From Candidatus Magasanikiibacteriota bacterium (lineage in GTDB: Bacteria; Patescibacteriota; Patescibacteriia; Magasanikbacterales; UBA922): 44,631 nt of DNA. Each line of letters starts with the position of its first letter. The stretch's first letter is position 1. The position numbers and the translations under genes were made by a program. The DNA is taken from the NCBI GenBank assembly GCA_018650645.1, contig JABIFP010000024.1, forward strand, positions 1-44,631. Direction: 5' to 3'. The notes beneath the pieces were generated by a model. That model had not been told where the DNA came from, ran no database searches, and worked only from the letters and a program-made list of their open reading frames with translations. Positions 1,729 to 35,157 of this stretch are shown here, piece by piece.

Positions 1729-1760
1729 AAAAGCTCCTTTACATAAGGGAGTTTTTGTTT
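1729..1760 (+). terminator. Rho-independent terminator of a missing upstream gene
   Basis: AAAAGCTCCTTT (1729-1740) pairs with AAGGGAGTTTTT (1745-1756) around the loop ACAT, with two G-T wobbles, and runs into TTTTTGTTTT. The style matches the AT-rich block. It points rightward, yet no AT-rich gene lies to its left, so the gene it served is absent. This helps place the junction just upstream. Confidence 0.7.
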
Positions 1761-1784
1761 TGGCTATATTATTCGCTAGCTATT

Positions 1785-1793
1785 TGATACAAT
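1785..1793 (+). promoter_or_regulatory. Extended -10 promoter for the region A operon
   Basis: TGATACAAT fits an extended -10 element (TGnTAnnnT). No good -35 hexamer lies 17 nt upstream. The predicted start near 1800 leaves a leader of only about 13 nt before the ATG at 1813, and no Shine-Dalgarno motif is seen. Confidence 0.45.
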
Positions 1794-1812
1794 AGCTGCA
1801 TATATCATCATT

Positions 1813-3045
1813 ATGAAAAGACTACAAAAACAAATAGAATCTTACGCAGGCACAAATATTGCCTATCTTGCAAATGGTGGTACATGGCTTACCCTTGCAA
1901 AAATACTTGGTTTTATTACCGCATTTGCTTCTTCAGTAGTATTTGCAAATGTACTGCCTGAAGAAGTTTATGGGAATTACCGTTTTTTCCTAACTCTTAT
2001 TGCCCTGTTTTCACTCACGACTCTGCCTGGCTTAAATACTGCAACAACTCGCGCCACAGCGCTAGGAGATGGCGGTATATTTTGGCATGCAAAAAAAATG
2101 AAAATTCGTTGGGGAATCATTGGTTCCTTGCTCAGTATCGCAACAGGACTATACTATTCATTTATCATAGGTAATCCAACGCTACTTATTCCATCCATTA
2201 TTATTGCACTCTTTATTCCCTTTCTTGAACCTTTTAATCTTTATCATTATTTCTTAAACGGCAAAAAAGATTTCCGCAGCATTACTATTTACACGTCAAC
2301 CATTCGATTTTTTACTACTGTTTTCCTCATCGGTATTGCGCTGCTCGCTCCTGATGCTATTTGGCTTATTGTTGGATATCTTGTCATTACACTTTTGGGC
2401 AGAAGTATTGCCTCTTCAATGACAAAACCCGGAGGACGTCCCCTTTCCGAAAAGAAAACTGCAGATCATATTCAATATGGGAAACGTCTTTCTGTGCTCT
2501 TTCTGGCAACAGAAATATCTGTATACTTAGATAAAATCTTAGTCTATACCCTCTTGAGTCCTGCTATGCTTGCGGCATACTACTTAAGTTTTATTCCATA
2601 CAAACAAACAAAAAATTTCCTTTCCAGTATCAACACACTAGCCATGCCGAAGTTTTCTGCTAATTCTGCAAAAACGATCCGAGCTACTCTACCAAAGAAA
2701 ATGATGAAGTTATACCTAATTATTATTCCGCTCATCATCCTTTTTTGGCTCGTTGCCAAACCCATATTTAGCTTTATCTATCCAAAATATCCTGAGTCTA
2801 TTTTCTTTGCGCAACTTCTTATGTTGCAGCTTGCTTTTTATCCATTTACGCTTTTCACGACATCCTTTTCTGCCCTAAAACAGACAAAACGATTATACGT
2901 GACAACTATAAGTGGAGCCCTACTCCGGATAATAGGTATACTTATCTGCATACCTATTTGGGGGCCCGTGGGAGCCATTGTTGCCATCCTCATAGCGCGC
3001 ACAATGCAGGCAATCATTGAAACCATTTTTTTCTTTTATGAATAA
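1813..3045 (+). CDS. Wzx-like oligosaccharide/polysaccharide flippase
   Basis: This 410-residue polytopic membrane protein has about 10-12 hydrophobic segments, starting near residue 25 (LANGGTWLTLAKILGFITAF). It resembles the oligosaccharide flippase/MATE-like MOP superfamily, which moves undecaprenyl-diphosphate-linked oligosaccharides across the inner membrane. The N-terminal pattern VLPEEVYGNYRFFLTLIAL is typical of the family. It is somewhat shorter than many Wzx proteins (about 430-500 residues). The gene is first in a long + strand series of glycan genes, behind a terminator and an extended -10 promoter, and its stop overlaps the next start by 8 nt. The fold is reasonably sure; the exact substrate cannot be read from the sequence. 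Confidence 0.8.
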   Translation: MKRLQKQIESYAGTNIAYLANGGTWLTLAKILGFITAFASSVVFANVLPEEVYGNYRFFLTLIALFSLTTLPGLNTATTRATALGDGGIFWHAKKMKIRWGIIGSLLSIATGLYYSFIIGNPTLLIPSIIIALFIPFLEPFNLYHYFLNGKKDFRSITIYTSTIRFFTTVFLIGIALLAPDAIWLIVGYLVITLLGRSIASSMTKPGGRPLSEKKTADHIQYGKRLSVLFLATEISVYLDKILVYTLLSPAMLAAYYLSFIPYKQTKNFLSSINTLAMPKFSANSAKTIRATLPKKMMKLYLIIIPLIILFWLVAKPIFSFIYPKYPESIFFAQLLMLQLAFYPFTLFTTSFSALKQTKRLYVTTISGALLRIIGILICIPIWGPVGAIVAILIARTMQAIIETIFFFYE

Positions 3046-6116: not shown

Positions 6117-7313
6117 ATGACATTATCCTTCGGAAAAATTCTAAAATCGCTATGTAACTGGGTGAGCTTCTATCTCAGCCATTGTATGCCAAGAAATAAA
6201 AATATTTGGATACATACCGGCTGGAGAAGGACTCCAGAACGCGAAACTTTTGGTGATAATGCCAAATACTTTTTTTTATATATTCAACAACATAAACCAA
6301 ATATTCGATCCATCTGGATTGCTCAAGACAAAAAGATGAGAGATCTTCTTAGGACGCATGGATATTCTTCATATACCCTTGATTCTTTTATGGGAATATA
6401 TCTTTCACTCAGAGCCGGAGTCACAATTGTGGATTCGAATCTACGAATTGCAAACTGGCGGCTATCTGGAAGAAGTCGATATATTCAACTCTGGCATGGT
6501 AAATCATTTAAAAAAATGGGAAAAATCAGTCCATATGGATCAACGTATAATAAATTTGTATCGCCGAATTTATTTGTTACATATGCATACATCGTTGCAG
6601 CGTCTCATCTACTTGGTAAATATCTTCTTCAAGGATTTGAACACAAAAAAAAGCACTTACTTATCTCAAGTTTACCTCGGTATGATGTATTCTTTAGCGA
6701 TATTCCCGGCTCAGATATTGATGAAGATACACAACTATCACAAAAAATCGATCAAGATAAGAAGGCTGGCTATGAATCCGTAGCGTTTTATGCCCCAACA
6801 TATCGTCCTGATGGAAGCAACCCACTAGAACATTTAGATCTTACCATGCTCAGCGATGCGCTATCGGTGTCGAATACAAAATGTTATATATCACTCCATC
6901 CAAAATGCTATAACAAAGATTGGAAAAAACCTGACGGATATCAGCATATTGAATTTATCCAAACCGTATTAGATATTTATCCTATATTCAAGAAATTTTC
7001 TGTTATTATTACAGATTATTCCTCTATGGCAATCGATGCTCTTCTTTGCAATGTTCCATCCGTTATATATGCATACGATGAAAGTACCTATCGTGTCAGT
7101 ATGGGAATTCATGACGAGCTTTGGGATGCCTTTCCAGCGCACAAAACGCATACGATGCCTAAACTCTGTAAGATTTTGAAAGAAAAAGACTATGCTTGGA
7201 ATGCCTCTTTTCAGCAAACAAAAGAGAAATTCTTTACTTTTTCTTCGCTTCATGGTTATAATGAGCAGGCCTCATCAAGGCGAATATACGAAGCTATTGA
7301 AAAAATACTCTGA
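6117..7313 (+). CDS. CDP-glycerol glycerophosphotransferase family protein (TagB/TagF-like)
   Basis: This 398-residue protein matches the Glyphos_transf family (PF04464). IQLWHGKSFKKMG is at about 123-135, YAPTYR at 225-230, a His-Pro pair at 261-262, and ITDYSSMAIDALL at 298-310. These contain the conserved His, Arg and Asp-Tyr-Ser-Ser positions of TagB/TagF enzymes, which transfer alcohol phosphates from CDP-glycerol or CDP-ribitol to glycan or wall teichoic acid acceptors. It begins 33 nt after gtrA and ends 4 nt before a hydroxyacid dehydrogenase. A cytidylyltransferase-like gene follows two genes later, so a CDP-linked donor may be made locally. The donor need not be CDP-glycerol. Confidence 0.85.
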   Translation: MTLSFGKILKSLCNWVSFYLSHCMPRNKNIWIHTGWRRTPERETFGDNAKYFFLYIQQHKPNIRSIWIAQDKKMRDLLRTHGYSSYTLDSFMGIYLSLRAGVTIVDSNLRIANWRLSGRSRYIQLWHGKSFKKMGKISPYGSTYNKFVSPNLFVTYAYIVAASHLLGKYLLQGFEHKKKHLLISSLPRYDVFFSDIPGSDIDEDTQLSQKIDQDKKAGYESVAFYAPTYRPDGSNPLEHLDLTMLSDALSVSNTKCYISLHPKCYNKDWKKPDGYQHIEFIQTVLDIYPIFKKFSVIITDYSSMAIDALLCNVPSVIYAYDESTYRVSMGIHDELWDAFPAHKTHTMPKLCKILKEKDYAWNASFQQTKEKFFTFSSLHGYNEQASSRRIYEAIEKIL

Positions 7314-7317
7314 TTTT

Positions 7318-8298
7318 ATGATCATGAAAGCGTTAATTACGGATCCAATTGATAGTTCTGGCCCAGAGCTTCTTGCGAGTAAGGGGATTGAAATCACTAC
7401 AAAAATTGGCCTATCTGCTGCAGAAATTGAAAAAATAGTTTCTGATTTTGATATTCTTATTTGCCGAACAAGCACAAAAGTAACCAAGCCTATTATCGCA
7501 GCAGCAAAAAAACTGCAGTGTATTGGTCTTGTATCAACAGGATGGGATCACATAGATATTCCAGAAGCAAATGTACATGGTATTGCTGTGCTTGGACTAC
7601 CGCCAAACAAAGACATAGATGTGACAAAAAAAGGAAGCTTTGTCCCCACATCAGAGCACGTGATTCTCTCTATGCTTGCAGCAGCTGGAAATTATTGCCA
7701 GGTGGTTGATGAGTTAAAACAAGGGAACTGGAATAAATTTGCCTTCCAAGGTACTGAACTCTTTCAAAAAACACTTGGGATCATTGGCTTTGGTCGCATT
7801 GGCCAGCTTGTATATGAACGAGCTACCGCCTTTGGTATGCGCATCCTAGTAAGTGATACAAGTAAACAAAAAAGTAATCAATTTCCTAATATTGAATTTG
7901 TCTCACAAGAAAATCTTGTTCAGGAAAGCGATTTCATCTCAATCCATGTTCATAAGAATGCTTCAACCATTGACCTTATCAATAAAGAAACATTTGCCAC
8001 AATGAAAAAAGGTGTTATTCTCATTAACACCTCAAGAGGAGGGATCATCAATGAATCAGATCTTTTAGAGGCATTAAACCTCGGTCTTGTCAGAGCTGCA
8101 GCAATTGATGTATACGACAATAGTAAGGGCAAATTACCAATGGACCTTATCACTCATCCACGTGTACTTGCCACCCCACATATTGCAGGCGTAAGTCTTG
8201 AAGGACAAAAACGCCAATCAATCGATACGGCCCAAAATATTCTTCAATATCTGTTTGATGGGGATACATCAAATATAATAAATTCTCCAAATACCTAA
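7318..8298 (+). CDS. D-isomer-specific 2-hydroxyacid dehydrogenase (phosphoglycerate dehydrogenase-like)
   Basis: This 326-residue protein has the usual two-domain layout. The N-terminal substrate half includes TGWDHIDIPEA at about 74-84. The Rossmann motif GFGRIG is at 157-162, with Asp180 ending strand 2 and thus NAD preference. The catalytic Arg240 lies in INTSRGG and His288 in TPHIAG. The third catalytic position, Glu in the DVFxxEP motif of SerA, aligns with Ser269 (DVYDNSK), so activity may be altered or an acid nearby may substitute. A charged insertion (NKDIDVTKKGSF, about 97-108) precedes the domain hinge. The start at 7318 is chosen, with 7324 as an alternative; the frame opens earlier at 7192 inside the TagF-like gene. 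A second, rearranged copy of this fold sits in the protein at 10219. Confidence 0.85.
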   Translation: MIMKALITDPIDSSGPELLASKGIEITTKIGLSAAEIEKIVSDFDILICRTSTKVTKPIIAAAKKLQCIGLVSTGWDHIDIPEANVHGIAVLGLPPNKDIDVTKKGSFVPTSEHVILSMLAAAGNYCQVVDELKQGNWNKFAFQGTELFQKTLGIIGFGRIGQLVYERATAFGMRILVSDTSKQKSNQFPNIEFVSQENLVQESDFISIHVHKNASTIDLINKETFATMKKGVILINTSRGGIINESDLLEALNLGLVRAAAIDVYDNSKGKLPMDLITHPRVLATPHIAGVSLEGQKRQSIDTAQNILQYLFDGDTSNIINSPNT

Positions 8299-8308
8299 AA
8301 CAACCACT

Positions 8309-9025
8309 ATGAAAGCTGTTATTATTGCCGGAGGACAAGGAAGACGACTTCTTCCTCACACAAAGGACAAGCCAAAGTGCCTTATGACGGTTCATGAGAA
8401 ACCCATTCTTGAATACCAGTTCGAGGCGCTTCGTCATGTTGGTATTACTGATATAGCTATTGTTAGTGGACACTGCCACGATCTTCTTAAAACATACACC
8501 GCTCAATATAACCATCCCGTTACCTTTATTGAGAATACAGATTTTGCTGACACAAATAATGCATACGGAATTTGGCTAGCCAAAGAATTTGTAGCAGATG
8601 ATCCAGAAGGGTTTCTCCTTATTAATTCTGACCTTGTGTTTCCTCCAGAGATGCTTGCCTTTCTTATTGATTCAAAAGAAAAGGATTGTATTATTATTGA
8701 AAAAAACACCGACCCAGAAAGTGACATGGTGAAGATAGAAATGAAGGGTAACGATATCATTGCAATGAGTAAAGATATTCCACCACAAAAAACAAGCGCT
8801 GAAGCCGTAGGGCCAGTGAAATTCTCTCAAGAAGGAGGAGCCTTGTTTATGGAATACCTTGAATCATTTGTAAAAAAGAATGAGCGTAATCACTGGTTCT
8901 TCTACAAACTTGGAGACTTTGCTAGAGATCATTTCTTTGCAGGTATCTACAACCCTGGTTTCGTTTGGGCAGAAATTGACACGTATGAAGACCTGCAACT
9001 GGCTCACGAACTGATTAACGTGTAA
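8309..9025 (+). CDS. Nucleotidyltransferase, LicC/PntC-like (CTP:phosphocholine or aminoalkylphosphonate cytidylyltransferase type)
   Basis: This 238-residue protein starts with the NTP_transferase signature AGGQGRRL (7-14) and KPKCLM (21-26). DTNNAYGIWLA (81-91) and NSDLV (106-110) follow, and the C-terminal WAEIDTYEDLQLA is near 220. The TNN-Y-WLA motif and the short length fit the LicC/PntC branch, which makes CDP-choline or CDP-2-aminoethylphosphonate, better than glucose-1-phosphate thymidylyltransferases, which are longer. Its placement after a TagF-like enzyme and before a class V aminotransferase supports activation of an amino-alcohol phosphate or phosphonate. That substrate is inference; a sugar-1-phosphate cannot be excluded. 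Confidence 0.75.
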   Translation: MKAVIIAGGQGRRLLPHTKDKPKCLMTVHEKPILEYQFEALRHVGITDIAIVSGHCHDLLKTYTAQYNHPVTFIENTDFADTNNAYGIWLAKEFVADDPEGFLLINSDLVFPPEMLAFLIDSKEKDCIIIEKNTDPESDMVKIEMKGNDIIAMSKDIPPQKTSAEAVGPVKFSQEGGALFMEYLESFVKKNERNHWFFYKLGDFARDHFFAGIYNPGFVWAEIDTYEDLQLAHELINV

Positions 9026-9030
9026 ATACT

Positions 9031-10203
9031 ATGATGAAACCGCTCGAATCTCCTCCTCTTGATAGGATTCTTGATGCACCTGTATCACAGTTATTTGAGC
9101 AGCATAAAGATATAGCAAGTCCTCTTGTTAATAGGCACATTCAAGAGGTGAAAAAAAAACGTGTTTCTCCAGAAGCTGTGAAGCTGCTCGGTGACGCAAA
9201 TCATGCCTACCTACAAGAAATAGAACAGGATCTTCATCTTCGCTATCATCATATTGATTTAACAACGCTATCAGATCTCGAAGCATACATTAATACCATC
9301 TTTTCAGAGGTTACTAAACATACTTCTTTTTTTGGAACATATCTTAAAGAAGAAGCTGCAATAAAGATACTTCAAACATGCCCACCACAAGATATCATGA
9401 ATTTTTTTCAAGTAAAGTGTGTCGATGATATTTTTCACCGTCTCAGTCCACTGAAAATAATTTCTCTATCCAGATATACGGAGCGACAATCATGGCAAAA
9501 AACATATATTTCCCTGCTTGAATCTTTACCAAAAGATGCATTTGAACAGAGGCAGATAACCCACTTTTGTTTTACGCATGACACATATAAAGAGCTTCTA
9601 CGTAATTCAAATCAGCCACAAAAATTATGGAACATGTCACATAATAAAGTAACCGGACAAATTTTGATCTATCACCAGACAGACCTTTCACATTTACGTA
9701 CACCGTACCTTCTCTATGCTCTGGTATTCATGCATTATATATATGAAACAAGTTGCGCCGGGGCATTTTATACGTATATGCAGGACAAAACCAACTATCT
9801 TGGTCAAGTTATGGTACAATCATTTACCAACTCAAAGGGACGTATTGAAGGGTTAGGCGCGAATGTGTATTCCGAAACAATCTTTTGGGCAAAAGGTGTC
9901 AATCTCTTTTTTTTATTAAACCCATCCAAGCATAGTGAAATGATTATATCGCACGCAGCATGTGGATATGCAAAAAAAGAATCTTCAAAACACATATCAA
10001 TGAATATAATCGATCATCTCTGGAATTTGAATGGAGTACCTGGGGCTCCACACCGGTATCATTTTCAAGAACAATTATGGACTACCATCTCTAAACAACT
10101 TTGCGAATCCTTGCAACACACATCCACGTTTGAAGAGCGTATACTCAAAAATCTTCATATGACAGATATGCAAATAGTTCCAATTATTTTTCCTCACCAA
10201 TAG
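9031..10203 (+). CDS. Protein of unknown function in the head-group cassette
   Basis: I do not recognise this 390-residue protein. It appears soluble: no signal peptide and no clear membrane segment. The N-terminal 120 residues are charged and helical. A better-ordered C-terminal half contains WNMSHNKVTGQILIYHQ (about 206-222), a Tyr/His-rich stretch (LLYALVFMHYIYETSCAGAFYTY), then IEGLGANVYSETIFWAKG and PGAPHRYHF near 340-347. The many conserved-looking His, Tyr and Trp residues hint at an enzyme. It starts 5 nt after the cytidylyltransferase stop, with tandem ATGs at 9031 and 9034, and ends 15 nt before the giant fusion enzyme, so it is expected to work in the same pathway. No family is proposed. 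Confidence 0.7.
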   Translation: MMKPLESPPLDRILDAPVSQLFEQHKDIASPLVNRHIQEVKKKRVSPEAVKLLGDANHAYLQEIEQDLHLRYHHIDLTTLSDLEAYINTIFSEVTKHTSFFGTYLKEEAAIKILQTCPPQDIMNFFQVKCVDDIFHRLSPLKIISLSRYTERQSWQKTYISLLESLPKDAFEQRQITHFCFTHDTYKELLRNSNQPQKLWNMSHNKVTGQILIYHQTDLSHLRTPYLLYALVFMHYIYETSCAGAFYTYMQDKTNYLGQVMVQSFTNSKGRIEGLGANVYSETIFWAKGVNLFFLLNPSKHSEMIISHAACGYAKKESSKHISMNIIDHLWNLNGVPGAPHRYHFQEQLWTTISKQLCESLQHTSTFEERILKNLHMTDMQIVPIIFPHQ

Positions 10204-10218
10204 ACTCATTGTACCAAT

Positions 10219-13200
10219 ATGTTTTTGTTAAGCGATCTCATTTCTCCACTCTCTGCTCATGTAATTCAGGGAATCAAGCAGGAATACGGACATCACCGTA
10301 CAGAGTGGTTTACAAAATTTCTTCAAAATATCAACCATTTTTTTACCGTTCACTGCCAGTCAGTTGTTGACCCAATTTTTCTTACTTCGAATAAAAATGG
10401 TGCATTTGAAGGACTTATTAGTGCGGCCGTTGGTCATAATGATCAAGTATTATCGGCACAAGAAGATGATTTTTCTAGATTTCTTTCAAATACATCTTGC
10501 CACATTGATAGATACACAGACCTAGAATCAATGAATAAACTTCTTCTTCATAAGAAATATACCATTGTTTTTTTATCAAAAGATATCTGTAATCAAGCAG
10601 TAGAAGACATTGCAGAAATTATTGACCAGATTAAACAAAGCTCTCCATCAACAATTGTGTTATGTGACTTGAGCTATGGATTTGCAAGTTCCTATTATGA
10701 TTTGTCTTTATTGAGTAAAGCGGATGCCTATATTATTTCACCAGAATATGCACTAGGATCAATTTCCGGGACTGTTCTATTGTTTATCAATAATCCCGAA
10801 AACTTTCCATGCACAGAAAATTATCCATCATTTACCTATGACATAGCCTTAGCTCTTAAAGCGTGGACCAATAAAAAAACAACCCCCTATTCACCAAATA
10901 TTTTTTCCGTAATTTCCCTGTCTTACGCAATTGATGTATTAAAAAATCTTCCTGGCGGAATTACGTCGCATGTGCAGCACCAACAAGCAACTGCAACGTT
11001 CGTCAGAAACTGCTTATATCATATATTTCCAGACAAATACATCTTTGAACACGGAAATTCACACTCTTTTGTAACTTGTGACACCGAGGAAGATGCTATT
11101 GCTATACAAGCATATCTTCGCGAACATGCAATGTATGCAAGTATCATTCATAGTGCATCTGATTGGAAAATTCGTATTGGTCATTTTGGATATGTTCCAA
11201 AAGAACATCTTAAGATTGTACAAAATGTGCTTCTTGCATATGCAAACACCGATCTAAAGCAACTTCATCAACGTACTGATAGTATTTTTTCAGCCGATGA
11301 TTATGTTGTGACGAAAGATGAAAGTTTGTTTTCTTCGCTGTTTACTATCGATGTGGAAGAATTTCATACAGCCTCAGTGTCAAAATTTGCCAAAATTTCG
11401 GATAAACAATTAAAAAACAAACTTACGAGCGGTGTACAACGTATATTCAAGTTTGATCAAACACAAATTTCACAATATTTACATAAACGGCATATTGGAT
11501 TTATTGGTGCTGGAAATACTGTTCGCGAAACAATTTCTATTTTACAAAAAATGGGTATCCACGATATTACCATATATTCACCAACATTACTCAATACAAA
11601 AGAGACAGCTAAACCCAATCAAAAACCACATAAGTATCCAGATTTTTGGACAGAAAAAAATATAAAAATTGCATCATCCGCAGAAGAAGTCTTTATGAAC
11701 TGCGAAACCGTTGTTCTACTACCTACATATTATACAAAACCGTCATCAGAGATAATGAAAAAAGATCCTGAATATATCAATGATCATCTAGTCAATAAAC
11801 AATTACTTGCCAACGTGCGTCACCATGGAAAAATGGATACACTTATTAATGCTTCAGCAAGATATAATTTAATTGATAGACAGGCACTTAAAGAAGCAGT
11901 TGATGATGGATGGCTACGTTTTTTTTCAGACGAATTACCGAGCGAAATACAAGAATATACGGATCCACTACAGTATCATGAGAACGTTACTTTTACAGGC
12001 CATATTGGTGGATCATGTAGGAGTACCAAAAAGAAAATTGCTCATAACACAAACAAAATTATTAAACACGTCTTATCAAAAGTATACAGCAATGTAGAAT
12101 TGCAAAATGATCTTCATTACGTACCAAATTGTGTCAATAAGCATGTCGCACCAGATGTGTGGAAATACGAAAAAACTTTTCATTCACCGCCACAGACACT
12201 TCGTGTACTACTTACTGATAAATTTGAAATAAATATATTAGATATTGAAGGACTGGCACAGGATTTTGATATTAAAATTGAGGTCAAAGATATCAGTCTG
12301 GATTCAATGTCAGAAAAACATCTCATCGACACATGTACAAATTTTGACCCCCACATCATACTTTTTCGTACCAGAACAGTTATTTCAGATACTGTTGCAA
12401 ATGCATTTCAATCCCTATCTCTCTTATTCTTAATTCGTCCAGGGGTTGGTATAGATAATATTTATCCTGGAATGGCCGAAATTTCACGCCAAGGAATTCA
12501 AATATACAATGAACCAACCGGTAATTCTCTTGCAGTCGGAGAAATGACGACATATTTTATCGTGAACTCTGAACCATCCCTCCTACTCGCACCAGGCCCA
12601 ACGAACTATTGCCCCGAAATTTTTTCATCTATTGATCAATATACTGATCCTAGAGATCCATCATATGTTGACACATATGCAAGTGTCAAAGCGCAACTAT
12701 CCTCATGGACGTCGCAAGACCTTCCAGCAATTATTAAATCCGCACCGAGTACAGCTTTTTTGGAATCTACCGTAACAAATGCTGTGTCGAATGAAGAAAT
12801 CGGACTTGTCATTTCGAATGGAAAATTTGGCAATAGATTTCATGAAATTTGCACACTTCACAAGAAACAACACTATTTTATTGATATTGATAATGAAGAT
12901 TGGGGTCAGCCGCACACTGTTGAAAAAATCTGCAAATATATTCATGAAAAGAATGCAATATCAAAGCAACCAATCTCATTTATGTGTTTACAGCAAAATG
13001 AGACCAGTACTGCCATTTCATATAAACCATATCATCTTAAACAAATTATTGAAGCATTGCGATCGTATGAACCACATTGTATTGTCATTATTGATGCAGT
13101 GAGTGGCTTTTTTGCCCATGATGTTCCGCAAAAAGAGCTTGATATCGATGCACTCATTATAGGATCCCAAAAAGCATTGGGGCTCTCTTCTGGCATTTCC

Positions 13201-13794
13201 TTTTTATCTCTTAGTGAACGATACGTGGAGAAATTACTCAGCCTCACGAAAAGTAATATATCTCTACAAGATTTTCTTAGATTAGAACCGCAAAAGGTCA
13301 AGGAAATTTATCATATTCTGGGGAAGCGACAAAAAGTTTTTTACACGAACATCTTAAAAGACTTTTACGAATCGTATCACAACCTACAACCAGATAGCGG
13401 AGGAGTATTTCATACCTTGTCTGCAAAAAAGTCATTAAATATTCTTGCAAAGAAAAATAAGACCGAACACCACGAATCTCGAAAGCAATACGCAAGCGCT
13501 GTCCGAAAAAAGTTACAAGAATTAGGATTCACAAAGATAGTTCCAGAAGCATATGCATCATATTCAGTTACTGCGGCTCATGTTCCTCCTGGTTTATCAG
13601 CGCCGAAACTTATTTCAACACTACGAAACAGATTTGGCATTAGTATTGCAGGCTCACAAATTCCATTATTTAGAGAAACAATGATTCGTATTGGACATTT
13701 TGGACATATTTCTCAATATGACATCGGCTACTTACTCCGATCACTAGATCGAGCAGTAGCCATTGAAAAGCGCACAAGATCACCTGAAAGTTAA
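10219..13794 (+). CDS. Giant fusion enzyme: degenerate class V aminotransferase, rearranged D-2-hydroxyacid dehydrogenase, intact class V aminotransferase
   Basis: This 1191-residue soluble protein has four recognisable parts. Residues 1-355 are a class V aminotransferase fold (HHRTEWF near 26; IRIGHFGYV near 325), but the PLP-lysine position reads Tyr177 (SPEYALG) and PGPT is lost, so it should be inactive. Residues 421-630 are the NAD-binding and catalytic half of a D-2-hydroxyacid dehydrogenase (GFIGAGNTVRE at 427-437, INASARYNLID, GHIGGS with His595). Residues 661-785 resemble that enzyme's N-terminal substrate half (LRVLLTD, RPGVGIDNI), placed after instead of before the Rossmann half. 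Residues 788-1185 are an intact aminotransferase of the serine-glyoxylate/AEP-transaminase group (APGPTNYC, QNETSTA, DAVSGFF, SQKALG with Lys985, IRIGHFGHI). It lies at the end of the cassette that starts at 6117. Substrates are unknown. Confidence 0.8.
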   Translation: MFLLSDLISPLSAHVIQGIKQEYGHHRTEWFTKFLQNINHFFTVHCQSVVDPIFLTSNKNGAFEGLISAAVGHNDQVLSAQEDDFSRFLSNTSCHIDRYTDLESMNKLLLHKKYTIVFLSKDICNQAVEDIAEIIDQIKQSSPSTIVLCDLSYGFASSYYDLSLLSKADAYIISPEYALGSISGTVLLFINNPENFPCTENYPSFTYDIALALKAWTNKKTTPYSPNIFSVISLSYAIDVLKNLPGGITSHVQHQQATATFVRNCLYHIFPDKYIFEHGNSHSFVTCDTEEDAIAIQAYLREHAMYASIIHSASDWKIRIGHFGYVPKEHLKIVQNVLLAYANTDLKQLHQRTDSIFSADDYVVTKDESLFSSLFTIDVEEFHTASVSKFAKISDKQLKNKLTSGVQRIFKFDQTQISQYLHKRHIGFIGAGNTVRETISILQKMGIHDITIYSPTLLNTKETAKPNQKPHKYPDFWTEKNIKIASSAEEVFMNCETVVLLPTYYTKPSSEIMKKDPEYINDHLVNKQLLANVRHHGKMDTLINASARYNLIDRQALKEAVDDGWLRFFSDELPSEIQEYTDPLQYHENVTFTGHIGGSCRSTKKKIAHNTNKIIKHVLSKVYSNVELQNDLHYVPNCVNKHVAPDVWKYEKTFHSPPQTLRVLLTDKFEINILDIEGLAQDFDIKIEVKDISLDSMSEKHLIDTCTNFDPHIILFRTRTVISDTVANAFQSLSLLFLIRPGVGIDNIYPGMAEISRQGIQIYNEPTGNSLAVGEMTTYFIVNSEPSLLLAPGPTNYCPEIFSSIDQYTDPRDPSYVDTYASVKAQLSSWTSQDLPAIIKSAPSTAFLESTVTNAVSNEEIGLVISNGKFGNRFHEICTLHKKQHYFIDIDNEDWGQPHTVEKICKYIHEKNAISKQPISFMCLQQNETSTAISYKPYHLKQIIEALRSYEPHCIVIIDAVSGFFAHDVPQKELDIDALIIGSQKALGLSSGISFLSLSERYVEKLLSLTKSNISLQDFLRLEPQKVKEIYHILGKRQKVFYTNILKDFYESYHNLQPDSGGVFHTLSAKKSLNILAKKNKTEHHESRKQYASAVRKKLQELGFTKIVPEAYASYSVTAAHVPPGLSAPKLISTLRNRFGISIAGSQIPLFRETMIRIGHFGHISQYDIGYLLRSLDRAVAIEKRTRSPES

Positions 13795-29731: not shown

Positions 29732-32700
29732 TTATGATGATGGTGGAACGTGAGTTTGAGTGTAGTCATCCAATCCAGGAACTAAACGACCTACGAACCA
29801 ATGTGCATCAGTTGTAGAATCTACAGTTCCAGAGTTATCAGTCCACACGAATGAACCAAGATCTGAAGAATCAGATGCATCAGCATCGTCTTCTGCATTT
29901 GTGTTTGTTTGAGCACTTACAGTTGTAGTTGTTTCATCATCGATAGTTACCTTCAATGAATCACCAGCTGCAAAGCTTGCGAGTGTCGCACGTACACGAT
30001 ATGACTTCGAAGCACCCTCAGAAATATTTTCTACACTTGAAAGAGCAATCACAAGTCTATTTTGAGTTGTGTTACTTGTAAATGTAGCAGTAATTTCTGT
30101 GTTACTTGAGTCGTAGAGCTTTAGGTTTGGTGTTTGACCTACACATTCAAAGATAGTTGCTCCAGCTGCACAGCTTCCGCTGATATCAAGAGCAATTTGA
30201 CTCCATGCAAGGTCCCCAGCAGCATTAGCTGCAACGCTAAACTCAAAGATGTTTGATGCACCATTGATCAATGTCGCAGACGCATCTTTTCCATTATTAG
30301 TAACAGTTCCGATTCCTGCCATAGAAAGGGTAGGAATAGTTCTGTATGCAGAGAGAGTGTTCGCTTCAAGAGCAGAAGCTGGGTCAGTGTAAGTTCCACT
30401 CACAGTAATTGTCTGTGAGTTTGGAAGTGTTGATGTAACACCATCTGAATCACCAGCATTCATGATTGACATTGTATTTCCATTTCCAGCTGAAAGCGCT
30501 GTCAATGAGTACAATGATGGTCGTGAAATAACCTGTGTTTCAGCTACTTGACTGATACTGTTGTATCGAGCGTATAGGCTTGCTTTCACAGTACCATCTT
30601 CAGGAACCTCGATTGGAGTTCCTTCGATGTCGAAGTGAAGTTCACCATCAGACATTACTCGGCCCATTACCTTTGATCCTCCAACGTAGAGGTCCCAACC
30701 AGCTACACGTGCATCTGATGCAGATGAGCTAGCAGTTCCTGCTGCGTTTAAGTTTGCAAAGTATAGGTCAGTAACTTGGATGTCATCGTCTTCTGCGATG
30801 AATCTCCATCGTCCAACCTCTACGCCAGTGTCATCACTTGCGTCAGCAACAACGAGTGCAGTGTTTGGAGTATCTCCATCAACACCAACACGCAAGATTC
30901 CTCCAGTTACAAAGTCAATTGATTGACCTGTCACATCGTAAGTAGTTCCTGAAGTAAATCCAGAAACATCTTCACCTTCAGCATCATCGATGTCTGAATC
31001 TGAGGCATCCATTGTTACTACTACAGAAGTAGTTGCTCCTAGTGATGACTGCAAGTCACAGTACAACCCAAGTTCAGCTTGCGCTGAAGAAGCAATGTCA
31101 AGACGCATGTTGTTGAATGTAAGAGCACCAGAATTGTTTAGGTCATCTGTGTCTCCGATACCTGTAGCACCGTCATCATCAGATACGAAACAGTTAGTGA
31201 TCTTTGTGTAGTTTGAAGAGAGATATGATGAAGAACCTCCATCAGTCAACATGTCGAAATTCAATGTGTTCACACGAATATCTGATGCTGATCCTGCTTC
31301 TACTACGAATTGCAAGAGCAATTGATCTGAAGCACCAGCTACGAAGTTCTCACCTGATGAGTATCCATCATTTCTAGTAAGAGCTACTGATGCAGCGTTG
31401 ATTTCGATCAATCGTGATGTAGCTGTACCTGTTCGGTTAGCAGCTGCAACGTTGTCTCCACTTGAAACGTATTCTGGGTCTTGGAAATGATTTGAGTCAG
31501 ATCCACTAATCCAGAATTTGTATTGACTTGTAGCATCAGCTGCTTCTTCAAGATCAATAACAAGTGTTAATAGGTCATCGTCAACAAGTTCGAATGAACT
31601 GTTGAAGTTGTAGTACCATTCGTAGTCTCCAATGTCTCCAGCTGGAGCTGTTGAAGAAGCAGTAACAGTAGTAAGTGATGAACCAATACGATCATCATTG
31701 ATGTACAATTCAGCACGTTCAATGTCACCATTGATTTCCGCAAGAGAATTCACAGTACTTGTTGAGTCTCCGTGAAGCCATAATTGCAATCCATCAACTT
31801 GGATCTTTTGTCCAACGTCCACTCGCGCTACCATAGCAACGATATCATGTGTTGCAGGTGCGTAAGTTTCATTTGACGGTGAACTTACGTCAAGAGAAAC
31901 AGTAAACTGCCCAGCATCCAAAGTATACGTTTGGAGTTGGTTAGTAGCAGTACCGTTCAAGCTGTTTGTAACAGAAGCTCCAAATCCGCTCAATTCACGT
32001 ACGTGAAGGTCACGGTTGTTTTCAAGCTCCCAAATTACAGTTTCAGCGTCGTCTCCATCAGAGATGTCAGCTCGAATTTCGTATGTTCGGTCTTTTCCGT
32101 CTTCAATAAGACGAGCATCTTCCATGAACATGAAAGTTACGTAGTCTCCCCACATAGAAATACCACTGGTAACTTCTTCACCATCGTAGTAAAGACCAAG
32201 GTTTTCCATGTTAGCAGTGTTCAATGTACCTTCATTCTTCAATCGAACGTAAACAATTTCACCGTCTTTTTCGTTTGATGAACTGAAGTCCAAGTTGAAC
32301 TCACCAGTAACGATTCCTTCGTCACCAACTTCAATGTCAGATGATGCACCTTTTTCGTCAATAGTGATTGCTGCTGGAGTATAGTTTGAGTAACTCATCA
32401 AGTTACCACGCACTGGGAAAGATCCCATTACGTTAGCTCCGTTTGCGTCAACAAGGTCAGCTCTAGCAATTTGGAAACCATCTTGCATTGAGTTGTCTGC
32501 ACCAGTTGAAACAAGGTTTGCTACCAAGTCAAATTCAACAGTATTATTCGCACCAACAGTGTATTGTGGGCGAAGTGTTACTGAATCGTCACTACTTACA
32601 CTTTGTTCGTTTGATACTGGGAATCCATCAACTTCTAACCAAACTTTATCAAAGTTTGAGTCATCACCTTGACCAATTCTTTCGAATTGAATTTCGTCAA

Positions 32701-33610
32701 GAGTAGCTGATTCAGATCCAGCGCGAACGCGGAATGAAAGGTAGTTAACGTGTGTTGCTTTGTCAGGAGTAAGAGCAGATGCTGGAGTTCCAGCGCTAAG
32801 GCTCAAAGTAAGGTCACCTGCTGGAGTTTCCTCAGCTGGTTCTTCACCTTCTTCTACTTCCTCTTCTACTTCTTCTTCTGATCCTTGTGCAGGATCAGCA
32901 ACTACAGTAGCTGCAGTTACAGAATCACCTGAGTCTGCAACAGTTTCGAGTACTTCAGCTGAAACAACGCGAACGTCGCCAGCAGCTGGAGCTGGAAGGT
33001 CACCTGAAATTTCGTGACGCATTCCGTCCCAAACGTACCATAGAGTATCGTCACCTTCTACACGAACGATTTGACCGTTGTGTGGAGTTGCTTCAGTGAT
33101 GTCAGAACCTTCACCATAGTTAGCCCAGTGGAATGGAGAAACGTCTCTTACGAGAGTAGCCCATGCTGGTCCGTATAGTGCGATTGCGATAGCTTCTGAA
33201 GCGATCCAGTGACGCATGTTATCTGGTCCTACTGCGTATACTTTTGAATCAGTTGTGATCTTCACAAGGCGTGATCCATGTCGGAAAGTAACACCTGGTT
33301 GATCAAGATCAAGTGGGAAAGCCCCAGCTTGAGACAGTGACAAGTGGTTTAAACCAGCAAAGTCAGCCTGCCATGATCGATGAGTTTCCCCATTTGGGAA
33401 GTATCGTGATTTCATTCCTTCTGTTACCAAGAAAACAGCTTTGTCTCCTGATTCAGGAACGTCAAAGATGTCACCTGGCTCTAGTTCAACAGTTCCTTCA
33501 GCTTGAGCGATAGCAGGCAAGAAAGCCGCTACACCCATGCTCCAAGCAATTGTCATGAGAACTACAGACCATGTGAATCCTTTTTTTGTAAGAGTCATTA
33601 CATTAGTCAT
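29732..33610 (-). CDS. Large secreted S-layer-like surface protein
   Basis: This 1292-residue protein has a signal peptide (basic MTNVMTLTKKGF, hydrophobic core, AIAQAEG cleavage near residue 37). Residues 40-230 hold short motifs around FPNGETHRSW, VYAVGPDNMRHWIASEA and LWYVWDGMRHEI, similar to N-terminal domains of large surface proteins of Patescibacteria. An acidic linker of Glu/Pro follows at about 243-262. The remaining ~1000 residues are Asp/Ser/Thr-rich beta-type repeats with very few Cys and no catalytic motif. Codon use is uniform, with favoured codons repeated, as in highly expressed genes. A hairpin-rich leader precedes it and a strong terminator follows. It is probably the main S-layer-like coat protein and may be the glycan acceptor. 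Function is inferred from composition and context. Confidence 0.8.
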   Translation of the reverse strand: MTNVMTLTKKGFTWSVVLMTIAWSMGVAAFLPAIAQAEGTVELEPGDIFDVPESGDKAVFLVTEGMKSRYFPNGETHRSWQADFAGLNHLSLSQAGAFPLDLDQPGVTFRHGSRLVKITTDSKVYAVGPDNMRHWIASEAIAIALYGPAWATLVRDVSPFHWANYGEGSDITEATPHNGQIVRVEGDDTLWYVWDGMRHEISGDLPAPAAGDVRVVSAEVLETVADSGDSVTAATVVADPAQGSEEEVEEEVEEGEEPAEETPAGDLTLSLSAGTPASALTPDKATHVNYLSFRVRAGSESATLDEIQFERIGQGDDSNFDKVWLEVDGFPVSNEQSVSSDDSVTLRPQYTVGANNTVEFDLVANLVSTGADNSMQDGFQIARADLVDANGANVMGSFPVRGNLMSYSNYTPAAITIDEKGASSDIEVGDEGIVTGEFNLDFSSSNEKDGEIVYVRLKNEGTLNTANMENLGLYYDGEEVTSGISMWGDYVTFMFMEDARLIEDGKDRTYEIRADISDGDDAETVIWELENNRDLHVRELSGFGASVTNSLNGTATNQLQTYTLDAGQFTVSLDVSSPSNETYAPATHDIVAMVARVDVGQKIQVDGLQLWLHGDSTSTVNSLAEINGDIERAELYINDDRIGSSLTTVTASSTAPAGDIGDYEWYYNFNSSFELVDDDLLTLVIDLEEAADATSQYKFWISGSDSNHFQDPEYVSSGDNVAAANRTGTATSRLIEINAASVALTRNDGYSSGENFVAGASDQLLLQFVVEAGSASDIRVNTLNFDMLTDGGSSSYLSSNYTKITNCFVSDDDGATGIGDTDDLNNSGALTFNNMRLDIASSAQAELGLYCDLQSSLGATTSVVVTMDASDSDIDDAEGEDVSGFTSGTTYDVTGQSIDFVTGGILRVGVDGDTPNTALVVADASDDTGVEVGRWRFIAEDDDIQVTDLYFANLNAAGTASSSASDARVAGWDLYVGGSKVMGRVMSDGELHFDIEGTPIEVPEDGTVKASLYARYNSISQVAETQVISRPSLYSLTALSAGNGNTMSIMNAGDSDGVTSTLPNSQTITVSGTYTDPASALEANTLSAYRTIPTLSMAGIGTVTNNGKDASATLINGASNIFEFSVAANAAGDLAWSQIALDISGSCAAGATIFECVGQTPNLKLYDSSNTEITATFTSNTTQNRLVIALSSVENISEGASKSYRVRATLASFAAGDSLKVTIDDETTTTVSAQTNTNAEDDADASDSSDLGSFVWTDNSGTVDSTTDAHWFVGRLVPGLDDYTQTHVPPSS

Positions 33611-33873: not shown

Positions 33874-35157
33874 TTATTCTGAAACGGTTTCTTCTATTTC
33901 AGCTATAGCTTCAGGGGCCTCCGTCTGCACAGGTTCTTCTTCAACGACTGGTTCTTCCGTTGGCTCTTGTGGTGATTCTTCTTCAACTGGTGGTTGTTCA
34001 GGTTCAATGTTCAACTGTTCCTTTAATTCACCAATTGCTTCTTGAGTTTCTTCTTTTATATCTCCAAGCTGCTTGAGTTTCTCTACCGCTTCTTGCAGTT
34101 GCTGATCTTCTGAGAGAATTAACGTCTCTTTTGCCCCCTCATCAATTTGCAGCGTCTGATCTTTTGCAATTTTTGACGTTTCTTCAAGCTTCTCTATCAC
34201 TCCTTCTTCCATTTCTCCTGCAGGAGTTGTTGTGCTTACTACTTCTGGCACAGTAGATGTTGCAAGAACCTCTTCTACTACAATTGATTCCTCAGTGGCG
34301 GTCTCTTCTCCCTCTTCAGATGCCGTTTTCTTTTCTTCTAAGCTTTTTTCTAGCTGTTCTAGTTCGAGTTTTGCTTCTTCATTTTCACCCAGTAAACTCT
34401 CTGTCTTCTTAGCGATAAGCTCCTTTGCTTCTTCAGGGTTTCCTTCTACTACCACCCCAATCGCTTCAATTTCAGCATCTTCTACTGTTTTTGACGCTTC
34501 TACAATTTCTTTTGTTGCTTCTTCATTTCCTTCTTCTGTTTTTTCTACTTCTTTGGCAGCATCTCTTAAATTTCCTGAAATAACGGCTGTTGTTTCTGTC
34601 ATTTCTTTTGCAAGTGCTGCAGCCTTTGTCACATCTGTTTGCCGCATATCTGCTACATCTTCTGCAGCATCACTCAAATTCTTTTCTAAACTTTCTTTTA
34701 CCTTTTGTACCTCTTTTGGTTGTTTTTTTGCAATTTGCTTAATTTCTGAAGCGCGATTCGATGCACTCTTTAATGAAATTTGTACTGCTGATTCTTTATT
34801 TCCTGTCACTTTTGCTACCGTAAGCTGTGTTTTTTCTGATGCCAGCTTTACTCCATAGAGTAAATCACCCGGAAGCGAGTTTGTTGAGGCACTTACCGAA
34901 GTGAGCCAACCACCTACTGCTAGTCCTATAACAAGTGCCACAACAGCAAGTGATCTCACAGGAGCGAGCATTGATTGTGGAAATAAATACGAAAAAGACA
35001 CAGACCAAGATGGCTGTGCAGTATGTGCAGTTTTTTTGTTTTGTGAGATGTCAGACAAAAGTGCCGCACGAGTTTCTTTAACCCATGCTGCTTTTGGAGC
35101 GCCATACCGTGTATCACGCTTTAGTGCTTCAAATTGTGCCTTCATTTCATTACTCAT
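33874..35157 (-). CDS. DUF5667-type membrane protein, putative partner (anti-sigma-like) of the ECF sigma factor
   Basis: This 427-residue protein has a short basic N-terminal cytoplasmic segment, one membrane segment at about 67-88, then LPGDLLYGVK at 95-104. That motif marks DUF5667 proteins common in Patescibacteria and Actinobacteria. The external part is highly charged, Glu/Lys-rich coiled coil ending in a Glu/Pro/Val-rich acidic tail (about 375-427). The gene starts 6 nt after the sigma gene stop, so both are co-transcribed, as for sigma/anti-sigma pairs. No zinc-type anti-sigma motif is visible, so the regulatory role is inferred. It could instead be a surface-anchoring or wall-spanning protein. 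The S-layer-like gene lies next downstream. Confidence 0.75.
   Translation of the reverse strand: MSNEMKAQFEALKRDTRYGAPKAAWVKETRAALLSDISQNKKTAHTAQPSWSVSFSYLFPQSMLAPVRSLAVVALVIGLAVGGWLTSVSASTNSLPGDLLYGVKLASEKTQLTVAKVTGNKESAVQISLKSASNRASEIKQIAKKQPKEVQKVKESLEKNLSDAAEDVADMRQTDVTKAAALAKEMTETTAVISGNLRDAAKEVEKTEEGNEEATKEIVEASKTVEDAEIEAIGVVVEGNPEEAKELIAKKTESLLGENEEAKLELEQLEKSLEEKKTASEEGEETATEESIVVEEVLATSTVPEVVSTTTPAGEMEEGVIEKLEETSKIAKDQTLQIDEGAKETLILSEDQQLQEAVEKLKQLGDIKEETQEAIGELKEQLNIEPEQPPVEEESPQEPTEEPVVEEEPVQTEAPEAIAEIEETVSE

Follow-up and report, generated by a model that had tools for sequence, protein, structure and literature searches.

A rare five-gene cassette in a surface-glycan locus of Patescibacteria that may activate a small phosphate as a CDP ester

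The window analyzed in this study is a 44,631-nucleotide stretch of forward strand (contig JABIFP010000024.1, assembly GCA_018650645.1) from Candidatus Magasanikiibacteriota bacterium, a member of the Patescibacteriota. It begins at base 1 of its contig (C22) in an assembly of 1.04 Mb and 32 contigs that is rated 100% complete and 0.02% contaminated. Five forward-strand genes that span positions 6117–13794, with intergenic gaps of 10, 10, 5, and 15 nucleotides, encode in order a TagF/TarF-like transferase, a D-2-hydroxyacid dehydrogenase (DH), a cytidylyltransferase (CT), a protein outside the modeled families, and a fusion of aminotransferase and dehydrogenase parts (Table 1); the initial annotation of this DNA, made from its letters, had correctly described five closely spaced genes of these families. 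Pfam E-values are 1.2e-39 for Glyphos_transf in the first protein, 5.1e-53 for 2-Hacid_dh_C in the DH, and 2e-15 for NTP_transf_3 in the CT. The reading frame of the DH is open from position 7192, and the Met at 7324 was chosen as its start by homology. The cassette is surrounded by genes for a polysaccharide flippase, glycosyltransferases, methyltransferases, and an asparagine-synthase-like protein. The safest statement is that it appears to make a small phosphate activated with cytidine diphosphate (CDP), which the TagF-like enzyme would join to a surface glycan.

Table 1. Cassette genes and the parts of the fusion gene, with their positions in the window (PGDH, phosphoglycerate dehydrogenase; AT1 and AT2, first and second aminotransferase parts; PLP, pyridoxal phosphate)
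Feature	Positions	Strand	Evidence
TagF/TarF-like CDP-alditol phosphotransferase, 398 aa	6117..7313	+	Pfam Glyphos_transf, PDB profile matches
D-2-hydroxyacid dehydrogenase (DH), PGDH-like, 324 aa, with insertion	7324..8298	+	TIGR01327, PDB PGDHs, alignment
LicC/PntC/CpgD-type cytidylyltransferase (CT), 238 aa	8309..9025	+	PDB LicC/PntC-AEPT, trees, pocket residues
Fourth protein, 390 aa, family without Pfam or NCBIfam model, HYxxE motif	9031..10203	+	no family match
Fusion gene (fifth), aminotransferase/dehydrogenase parts	10219..13794	+	Pfam 2-Hacid_dh_C, 2-Hacid_dh, Aminotran_5
Fusion part 1, class V aminotransferase-like AT1, about residues 1–345	10219..11253	+	alignment with AT2 and L043
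Fusion part 2, PGDH-like NAD-binding part, about residues 346–655	11254..12183	+	PF02826 at 521–597; NF008759
Fusion part 3, PGDH-like N-terminal (substrate-domain) part	12184..12567	+	TIGR01327 1–108 at residues 662–782; alignment
Fusion part 4, C-terminal class V aminotransferase AT2, PLP lysine K985	12568..13794	+	PyrdoxPyrvTramin, PhnW-AepZ, PDB

All five genes recur, in unchanged order and on one strand, in Candidatus Komeilibacteria RIFOXYD1_FULL_37_29 (genome G506, locus L043, MHKS01000005.1), an organism of the same class and a different family. The gaps there are 8, 1, 5, and 2 nucleotides, the neighbors are glycosyltransferases, methyltransferases, a flippase, an epimerase, and a sugar transferase, and the identities with the window proteins (34–60% overall) are 46% for the TagF-like protein, 51% for the DH, 60–61% for the CT, 34% for the fourth protein, and 35% for the fusion. 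The order of the genes is not due to chance because all five recur in it; the initial annotation had suggested a search for this order in other Patescibacteria and had named a lack of conservation as a point against its pathway. A search with the fusion at E 1e-20 was positive in 2 of 333 genomes of the class, the window's own genome and G506. At the thresholds used, the CT was found in a single genome among the 86 in the window's order, the window's own, and in a single one among the 21 in the G506 family, G506 itself; across the phylum, 13 of 379 genomes, with the window counted, have CT-like matches, and neighborhoods were inspected for eight of the other 12, the four weakest being left out. 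A scan of the GTDB collection for the CT, which relied on two exact peptide patterns and is not a measure of rarity outside the class, confirmed 36 related loci, among which the Komeilibacteria locus alone is close; the remainder have at most 36% identity over at least 100 residues and up to 51% over 51 residues. The cassette is real, its occurrence is rare and patchy, and it is probably an accessory unit of a surface-glycan locus; its gene order is conserved between two families that belong to one class.

A phage or plasmid origin of the cassette is unsupported. The fusion matched 53 plasmid records, the best 15 of which are weak and cover only the aminotransferase (23–27% identity), and a single phage record with a weak aminotransferase match in the same range of identity. 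The fourth protein had no match in the plasmid collection, and viral contigs yielded no confirmed relative of it. For the CT, three matches of 52 residues were found in viral contigs and 21 weak records in phages, one of which is annotated as phosphoglutamine cytidylyltransferase.

The TagF/TarF domain of the first protein is nearly complete, with residues 41–395 covering positions 22–366 of the 367 in the PF04464 (Glyphos_transf) profile, and its PDB profile matches include TarL (8va1, 3e-20) and TagF (3l7i, 2.1e-12). From this likeness it is presumed to be the transferase of a CDP-activated group.

The best PDB matches of the CT are LicC (1jyk, 9e-17) and PntC-AEPT (6pd1, 8.6e-15). Trees of 17 and 21 rows place the CTs of both cassettes with LicC, PntC, and their relatives at 100/100; where they branch inside that group is not settled by the trees. 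The group excludes all five rows, taken from the 36 GTDB loci, whose top NCBIfam hits, each below its cut-off, are sugar nucleotidyltransferases, and the W/E/D letters of the C terminus also set the CT apart from these five. With this grouping and residues R13, K23, D108, E222, and D224, the CT is of the COG1213 type. Clustering with sugar-1-phosphate enzymes, which the initial annotation had named beforehand as an outcome that would weaken its pathway, is not seen. Sequence identities are low: 28% with PntC, 24% with LicC, 29% with a Prevotella CT, and 28–31% with CTs of lipid loci described below.

According to PMC6697681, Tde-PntC binds the amine of 2-aminoethylphosphonate (2-AEP) through Glu104 and Glu196. 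The position of Glu104 is Asn106 in both cassette CTs, which lack the acidic residue of PntC; Glu196 was placed differently by two alignments and was left unused. Asn is also present at position 106 in related loci L099, L100, and L102 and in lipid-locus CTs of Roseomonas and Pseudomonas, with Glu in L103 and L104, His in L101 and L106, and Tyr in L105. The CTs of L101, L103, and L106, which adjoin PepM and a thiamine pyrophosphate (TPP) enzyme, have Glu or His at this position and never Asn; no PepM was seen in the three neighbors of L105 that were scanned.

The second template is CpgD (PDB 10WI), which, according to a preprint (PMC13228409), holds glycerate via Asn90 and Asn110, with Met147 and Lys161 above, and has a Trp201 that shifts on CTP binding. 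By number and spacing, these five residues are equated with N84, N106, M140, K155, and W196 of the window CT, and the presumed equivalents of Asn90, Asn110, Lys161, and Trp201 are retained in both cassettes. Among the best 10 of 251 records from the plasmid collection, the top E-value (3e-32, at 30% identity) belongs to a CT from a Roseomonas lipid locus. Two Roseomonas CTs and one from Pseudomonas carry Asn, Asn, Lys, Ser, and Trp at the CpgD-equivalent places, and their loci encode either a fatty acyl-AMP ligase with an epimerase or short-chain dehydrogenase/reductase (SDR), or a CDP-alcohol phosphatidyltransferase with an acylglycerol kinase; we infer that they are CpgD orthologues. The CT of L100, whose neighbors are a glycerol-3-phosphate dehydrogenase and a Glyphos_transf gene, has five of the six pocket residues. 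The count for LicC, one of six, is unreliable because automatic alignments are off by one column at its D105. Taken together, the pocket favors a small C3 substrate with no amine to be bound, and it does not point to glycerate alone because L100, in its glycerol setting, scores five of six as well.

Several CT relatives lie in unusual settings. Three of the best 10 of 251 plasmid records are annotated as fusions with class I/II aminotransferases, and in L104 (6293–9175) the CT is fused to an aminotransferase of this class and adjoins an octopine-dehydrogenase-like gene. L100 (2772–6547, from Patescibacteria) has a CT fused to a haloacid dehalogenase (HAD)-type phosphatase, followed by the two genes named above, and looks like a compact cassette of the CDP-glycerol type. 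In L099 (4836–9930) the CT adjoins a MOFRL/DUF4147 gene, which we take to be glycerate-kinase-like, together with an SDR, a 3-dehydroquinate-synthase-like gene, and glyceraldehyde-3-phosphate dehydrogenase (GAPDH), and this locus may be another unusual CDP pathway.

The best profile match of the DH is TIGR01327 (7.7e-80), at 269 bits against a cut-off of 454, which leaves it outside the PGDH family as that model defines it, and its closest PDB structures are PGDHs. It reads STGWDHID where three PGDH alignments show RAGVGxDN, so that the Arg of RAGxGxDN is absent. Only two matches to PF02826 in the window genome (G000) are above the Pfam cut-off, and both are in the cassette; G506 has others.

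Profiles and alignment give the order of the fusion protein as a degenerate aminotransferase, a permuted dehydrogenase, and an intact aminotransferase. Both a dehydrogenase and an aminotransferase had been assigned to this gene by the initial annotation, and both are present; its one-plus-one makeup gives way to two aminotransferases that flank the dehydrogenase. The dehydrogenase is circularly permuted because its NAD part (NF008759 positions 218–316 at residues 521–617) precedes the PGDH N-terminal part (TIGR01327 positions 1–108 at residues 662–782). At the place of the PLP lysine, AT1 has Tyr in the window and Arg in L043 and is presumed, on this residue, to be an inactive partner; AT2 keeps K985 and conforms to class V. 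The profile matches of AT2 to PyrdoxPyrvTramin (2.5e-28) and PhnW-AepZ (6.8e-27) are both far under the cut-offs, its closest PDB structures are the aminotransferase 3f0h and then serine-glyoxylate and serine-pyruvate types, and the phosphoserine transaminase model matches the fusion at only 0.0019. The G506 counterpart has 698 residues and two aminotransferase domains only, with no dehydrogenase insert; searched against the 379 phylum genomes at E 1e-15, it was positive in two, the window and one with a single-domain relative. Class V aminotransferases are dimeric, and because of this AT1 and AT2 may form an internal pseudo-dimer with one active site. In the literature searched, what was found on circular permutation together with phosphoglycerate dehydrogenase looks unrelated by title and abstract.

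The fourth protein has no Pfam or NCBIfam match, and a profile built for it finds its family in 34 of the 379 phylum genomes at E 1e-5 (window counted; nine partial). A PfkB gene is present in 18 of 20 inspected loci of the family, directly upstream in 16, and the other neighbors in these loci are Rpe (18), RpiB (17), fructose-bisphosphate aldolase (FBA; 15), TktN (14), TktC (14), and GAPDH (13). PfkB is also directly upstream in all four further full-length members, and in L120 a protein of 505 residues joins the N-terminal part of the family to a PfkB domain. It is the gene neighborhoods of its relatives, and these alone, that point to a tie between the fourth protein and sugar-phosphate metabolism. 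In L024, L025, and L029 the family is fused to a Lysine_decarbox (LOG-like) domain; among 26 members searched with Pfam, no family occurred in more than two rows. The HExxH motif of gluzincins is replaced by HYxxE in 22 of 26 members, with HExxE/D in L117 and L118 and neither form in L039 and L119. Foldseek searches with two predicted models (mean predicted local distance difference test scores, pLDDT, 73.8 and 83.9) gave no match with E ≤ 0.001. With VIA, the first model had a best Z of 4.9 and many rows that are metallopeptidases (Z ≤ 4.9), presumably gluzincins from their entry names; for the second model the top two rows (Z 6.3) are lipoproteins of unknown function, and metallopeptidases reach at most 4.3. 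With no Foldseek match, the gluzincin likeness rests on these middling Z scores, and the resemblance of the predicted fold to gluzincin metallopeptidases is weak.

As an observation in its own right, the family directly follows PfkB in a GAPDH-RpiB-Rpe-transketolase-FBA cluster in a number of Patescibacteria (L021–L040, L116–L120).

The reading that we favor, with a probability of roughly 0.45, is that the head group is a C3 phosphate of the glycerate type that is activated by conversion into a CDP ester. The CT would join CTP to 2-phosphoglycerate, 3-phosphoglycerate, or a closely related compound, a step modeled on CpgD, the maker of CDP-glycerate, and the TagF-like enzyme would transfer the phospho-C3 group to a glycan or polymerize it. 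The task of the DH and of the serine-type aminotransferase would be to convert serine, hydroxypyruvate, and glycerate into one another, with or without a phosphate, and the resulting C3 acids may feed or vary the head group; in the window genome, the fusion would pair one active aminotransferase site with an inactive copy as an internal pseudo-dimer, with the permuted dehydrogenase between them. In support, the DH is nearest to PGDH and AT2 to serine-type enzymes in the PDB, both being enzymes of C3 acids, and glycosyltransferases and a flippase are present in both cassette loci; the pairing of a LicC/PntC-type CT with a TagF-like transferase, as first annotated, is seen in two surface-glycan settings.

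A number of observations weigh against this reading. The CpgD residues were matched through numbering and spacing rather than by direct alignment, the column of Met147 is uncertain by one, and the equivalent of Ser170 is Ala166 in the window CT. Asn at position 106 also occurs among the five sugar-type rows, in L063 and L067, and the residue signature is not specific to glycerate because L100, in a glycerol setting, has as many of the residues. The lipid-locus CTs are hardly closer to the window CT (28–31%) than PntC is (28%), and the nearest row in the trees is the Prevotella CT, which has Asp at 106 and three of the six pocket residues. In the window DH, the Glu that usually follows DVF, which we take to be a catalytic-triad residue, is missing, although alignment shows that the G506 copy keeps it. 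No kinase was recognized, and the DH and aminotransferase would be dispensable for plain CDP-glycerate because glycolysis supplies phosphoglycerate.

An amino head group is unlikely. Here 3-phosphoglycerate would be oxidized by the DH and transaminated to phosphoserine or an amino alcohol phosphate, then converted to a CDP ester such as CDP-serine and transferred by the TagF-like enzyme. A PGDH-like DH with a serine-type aminotransferase does represent, in family terms, the first two steps of phosphoserine synthesis, and no 2-hydroxyacid dehydrogenase beyond the cassette is above the Pfam cut-off in the window genome. However, the amine-contact Glu104 of PntC is Asn106, the DH lacks the Arg of RAGxGxDN, the literature searched holds no paper that pairs CDP-serine with a cytidylyltransferase, and no decarboxylase was recognized in the cassette, a result limited by the fourth protein, which has no family assignment. 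The amino-alcohol phosphate or phosphonate that the initial annotation had placed in the pathway is unsupported on the same residue, the lack of a recognized decarboxylase, and the PepM searches given below; its pathway as a whole is partly supported.

Plain synthesis of a teichoic-like polymer from CDP-glycerol or another CDP-polyol, with the DH, the aminotransferase, and the fourth protein as passengers from serine or sugar metabolism, also seems improbable. L100 pairs a CT with glycerol-3-phosphate dehydrogenase and Glyphos_transf and is alike at five of six pocket positions, but the cassette has no glycerol-3-phosphate dehydrogenase, and in both genomes its five genes remain side by side, a few bases apart.

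A conventional sugar nucleotide pathway with a CT acting on sugar-1-phosphate, for which general nucleotidyltransferase matches could be cited (e.g. Arch_glmU, 9.7e-21, far under its cut-off), is very unlikely and was rejected on the tree position and the C-terminal W/E/D letters that separate the CT from the five sugar-type rows. Decoration with 2-AEP phosphonate or phosphocholine by the known Pnt or Lic routes, suggested by the family of the CT, the PhnW-AepZ match of the aminotransferase, and the PepM, TPP-enzyme, and CT clusters of L101, L103, and L106, is the least probable and was likewise rejected: the acidic amine contact is lost to Asn106, PepM was found in neither cassette genome by a search that was positive in G172 and 11 of 14 control genomes (the reason that a phosphonate route is disfavored), and LicD was found in neither by a search positive in two of 14 controls. 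The absence of both genes had been noted before and holds at the level of the two genomes.

The glycerate-type reading can be extended, more tentatively, to a new surface-polymer chemistry in Patescibacteria, in which a glycerate- or serine-derived phospho-C3 unit would be CDP-activated, joined by the TagF-like enzyme, and supplied by the one-site pseudo-dimer that carries the permuted dehydrogenase between its halves, with help from a protein of the pentose-phosphate-cluster family. To our knowledge, the surface polymers of these bacteria are little known, and the few, expressible enzymes of the cassette would make one of them testable in vitro. If the reading is right, recent CDP-glycerate chemistry would extend from lipid to glycan, a dehydrogenase in permuted order would be housed inside an aminotransferase pair, and there would be leads to the unnamed family beside PfkB in the cluster of central carbon genes that several Patescibacteria carry. 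By title and abstract, nothing related was found in the literature that joins four of the five subjects PGDH, cytidylyltransferase, aminotransferase, teichoic acid, and Patescibacteria.

Elsewhere in the window, positions 1–1750 have a G+C content of 0.57–0.67, as compared with 0.34–0.42 at 1751–3000, and an open reading frame there (22–1584) carries MopE copper-binding motifs and an FGE-sulfatase domain; this start may be a foreign gene or a contig join. Proteins encoded at 29732–33610 (1292 residues) and 33874–35157 (427 residues) have no Pfam match at E 1e-4.

Among known systems, SerA with an aminotransferase, or the serine-hydroxypyruvate-glycerate enzymes, have in common with the cassette a PGDH-like DH and a serine-type aminotransferase; unlike these sets, the cassette has a dehydrogenase permuted inside a tandem aminotransferase, lies in a glycan locus, and barely matches phosphoserine transaminase. 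With PntC and PntC-AEPT (PMC6697681), it has in common a cytidylyltransferase of the same group and a class V aminotransferase, and it differs in lacking the TPP enzyme and a detected PepM, in having Asn for the amine-contact Glu, and in the added TagF-like transferase. The TagF/TarF CDP-glycerol pathway likewise has a Glyphos_transf transferase, which presumably draws on a CDP ester; according to PMC12275187, TagD of the teichoic-acid pathway is of COG0615, whereas the cassette CT is of the LicC/PntC type and is accompanied by extra DH and aminotransferase genes. According to PMC12275187 and PMC13228409, CpgD of Caulobacter, a CTP:phosphoglycerate cytidylyltransferase, is of the COG1213 type, as is the window CT, with the places of Asn90, Asn110, Lys161, and Trp201 matched by numbering and spacing and Ser170 exchanged for Ala. 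CpgD serves a sphingolipid; the cassette instead combines its CT with a TagF-like transferase, a DH, and an aminotransferase fusion.

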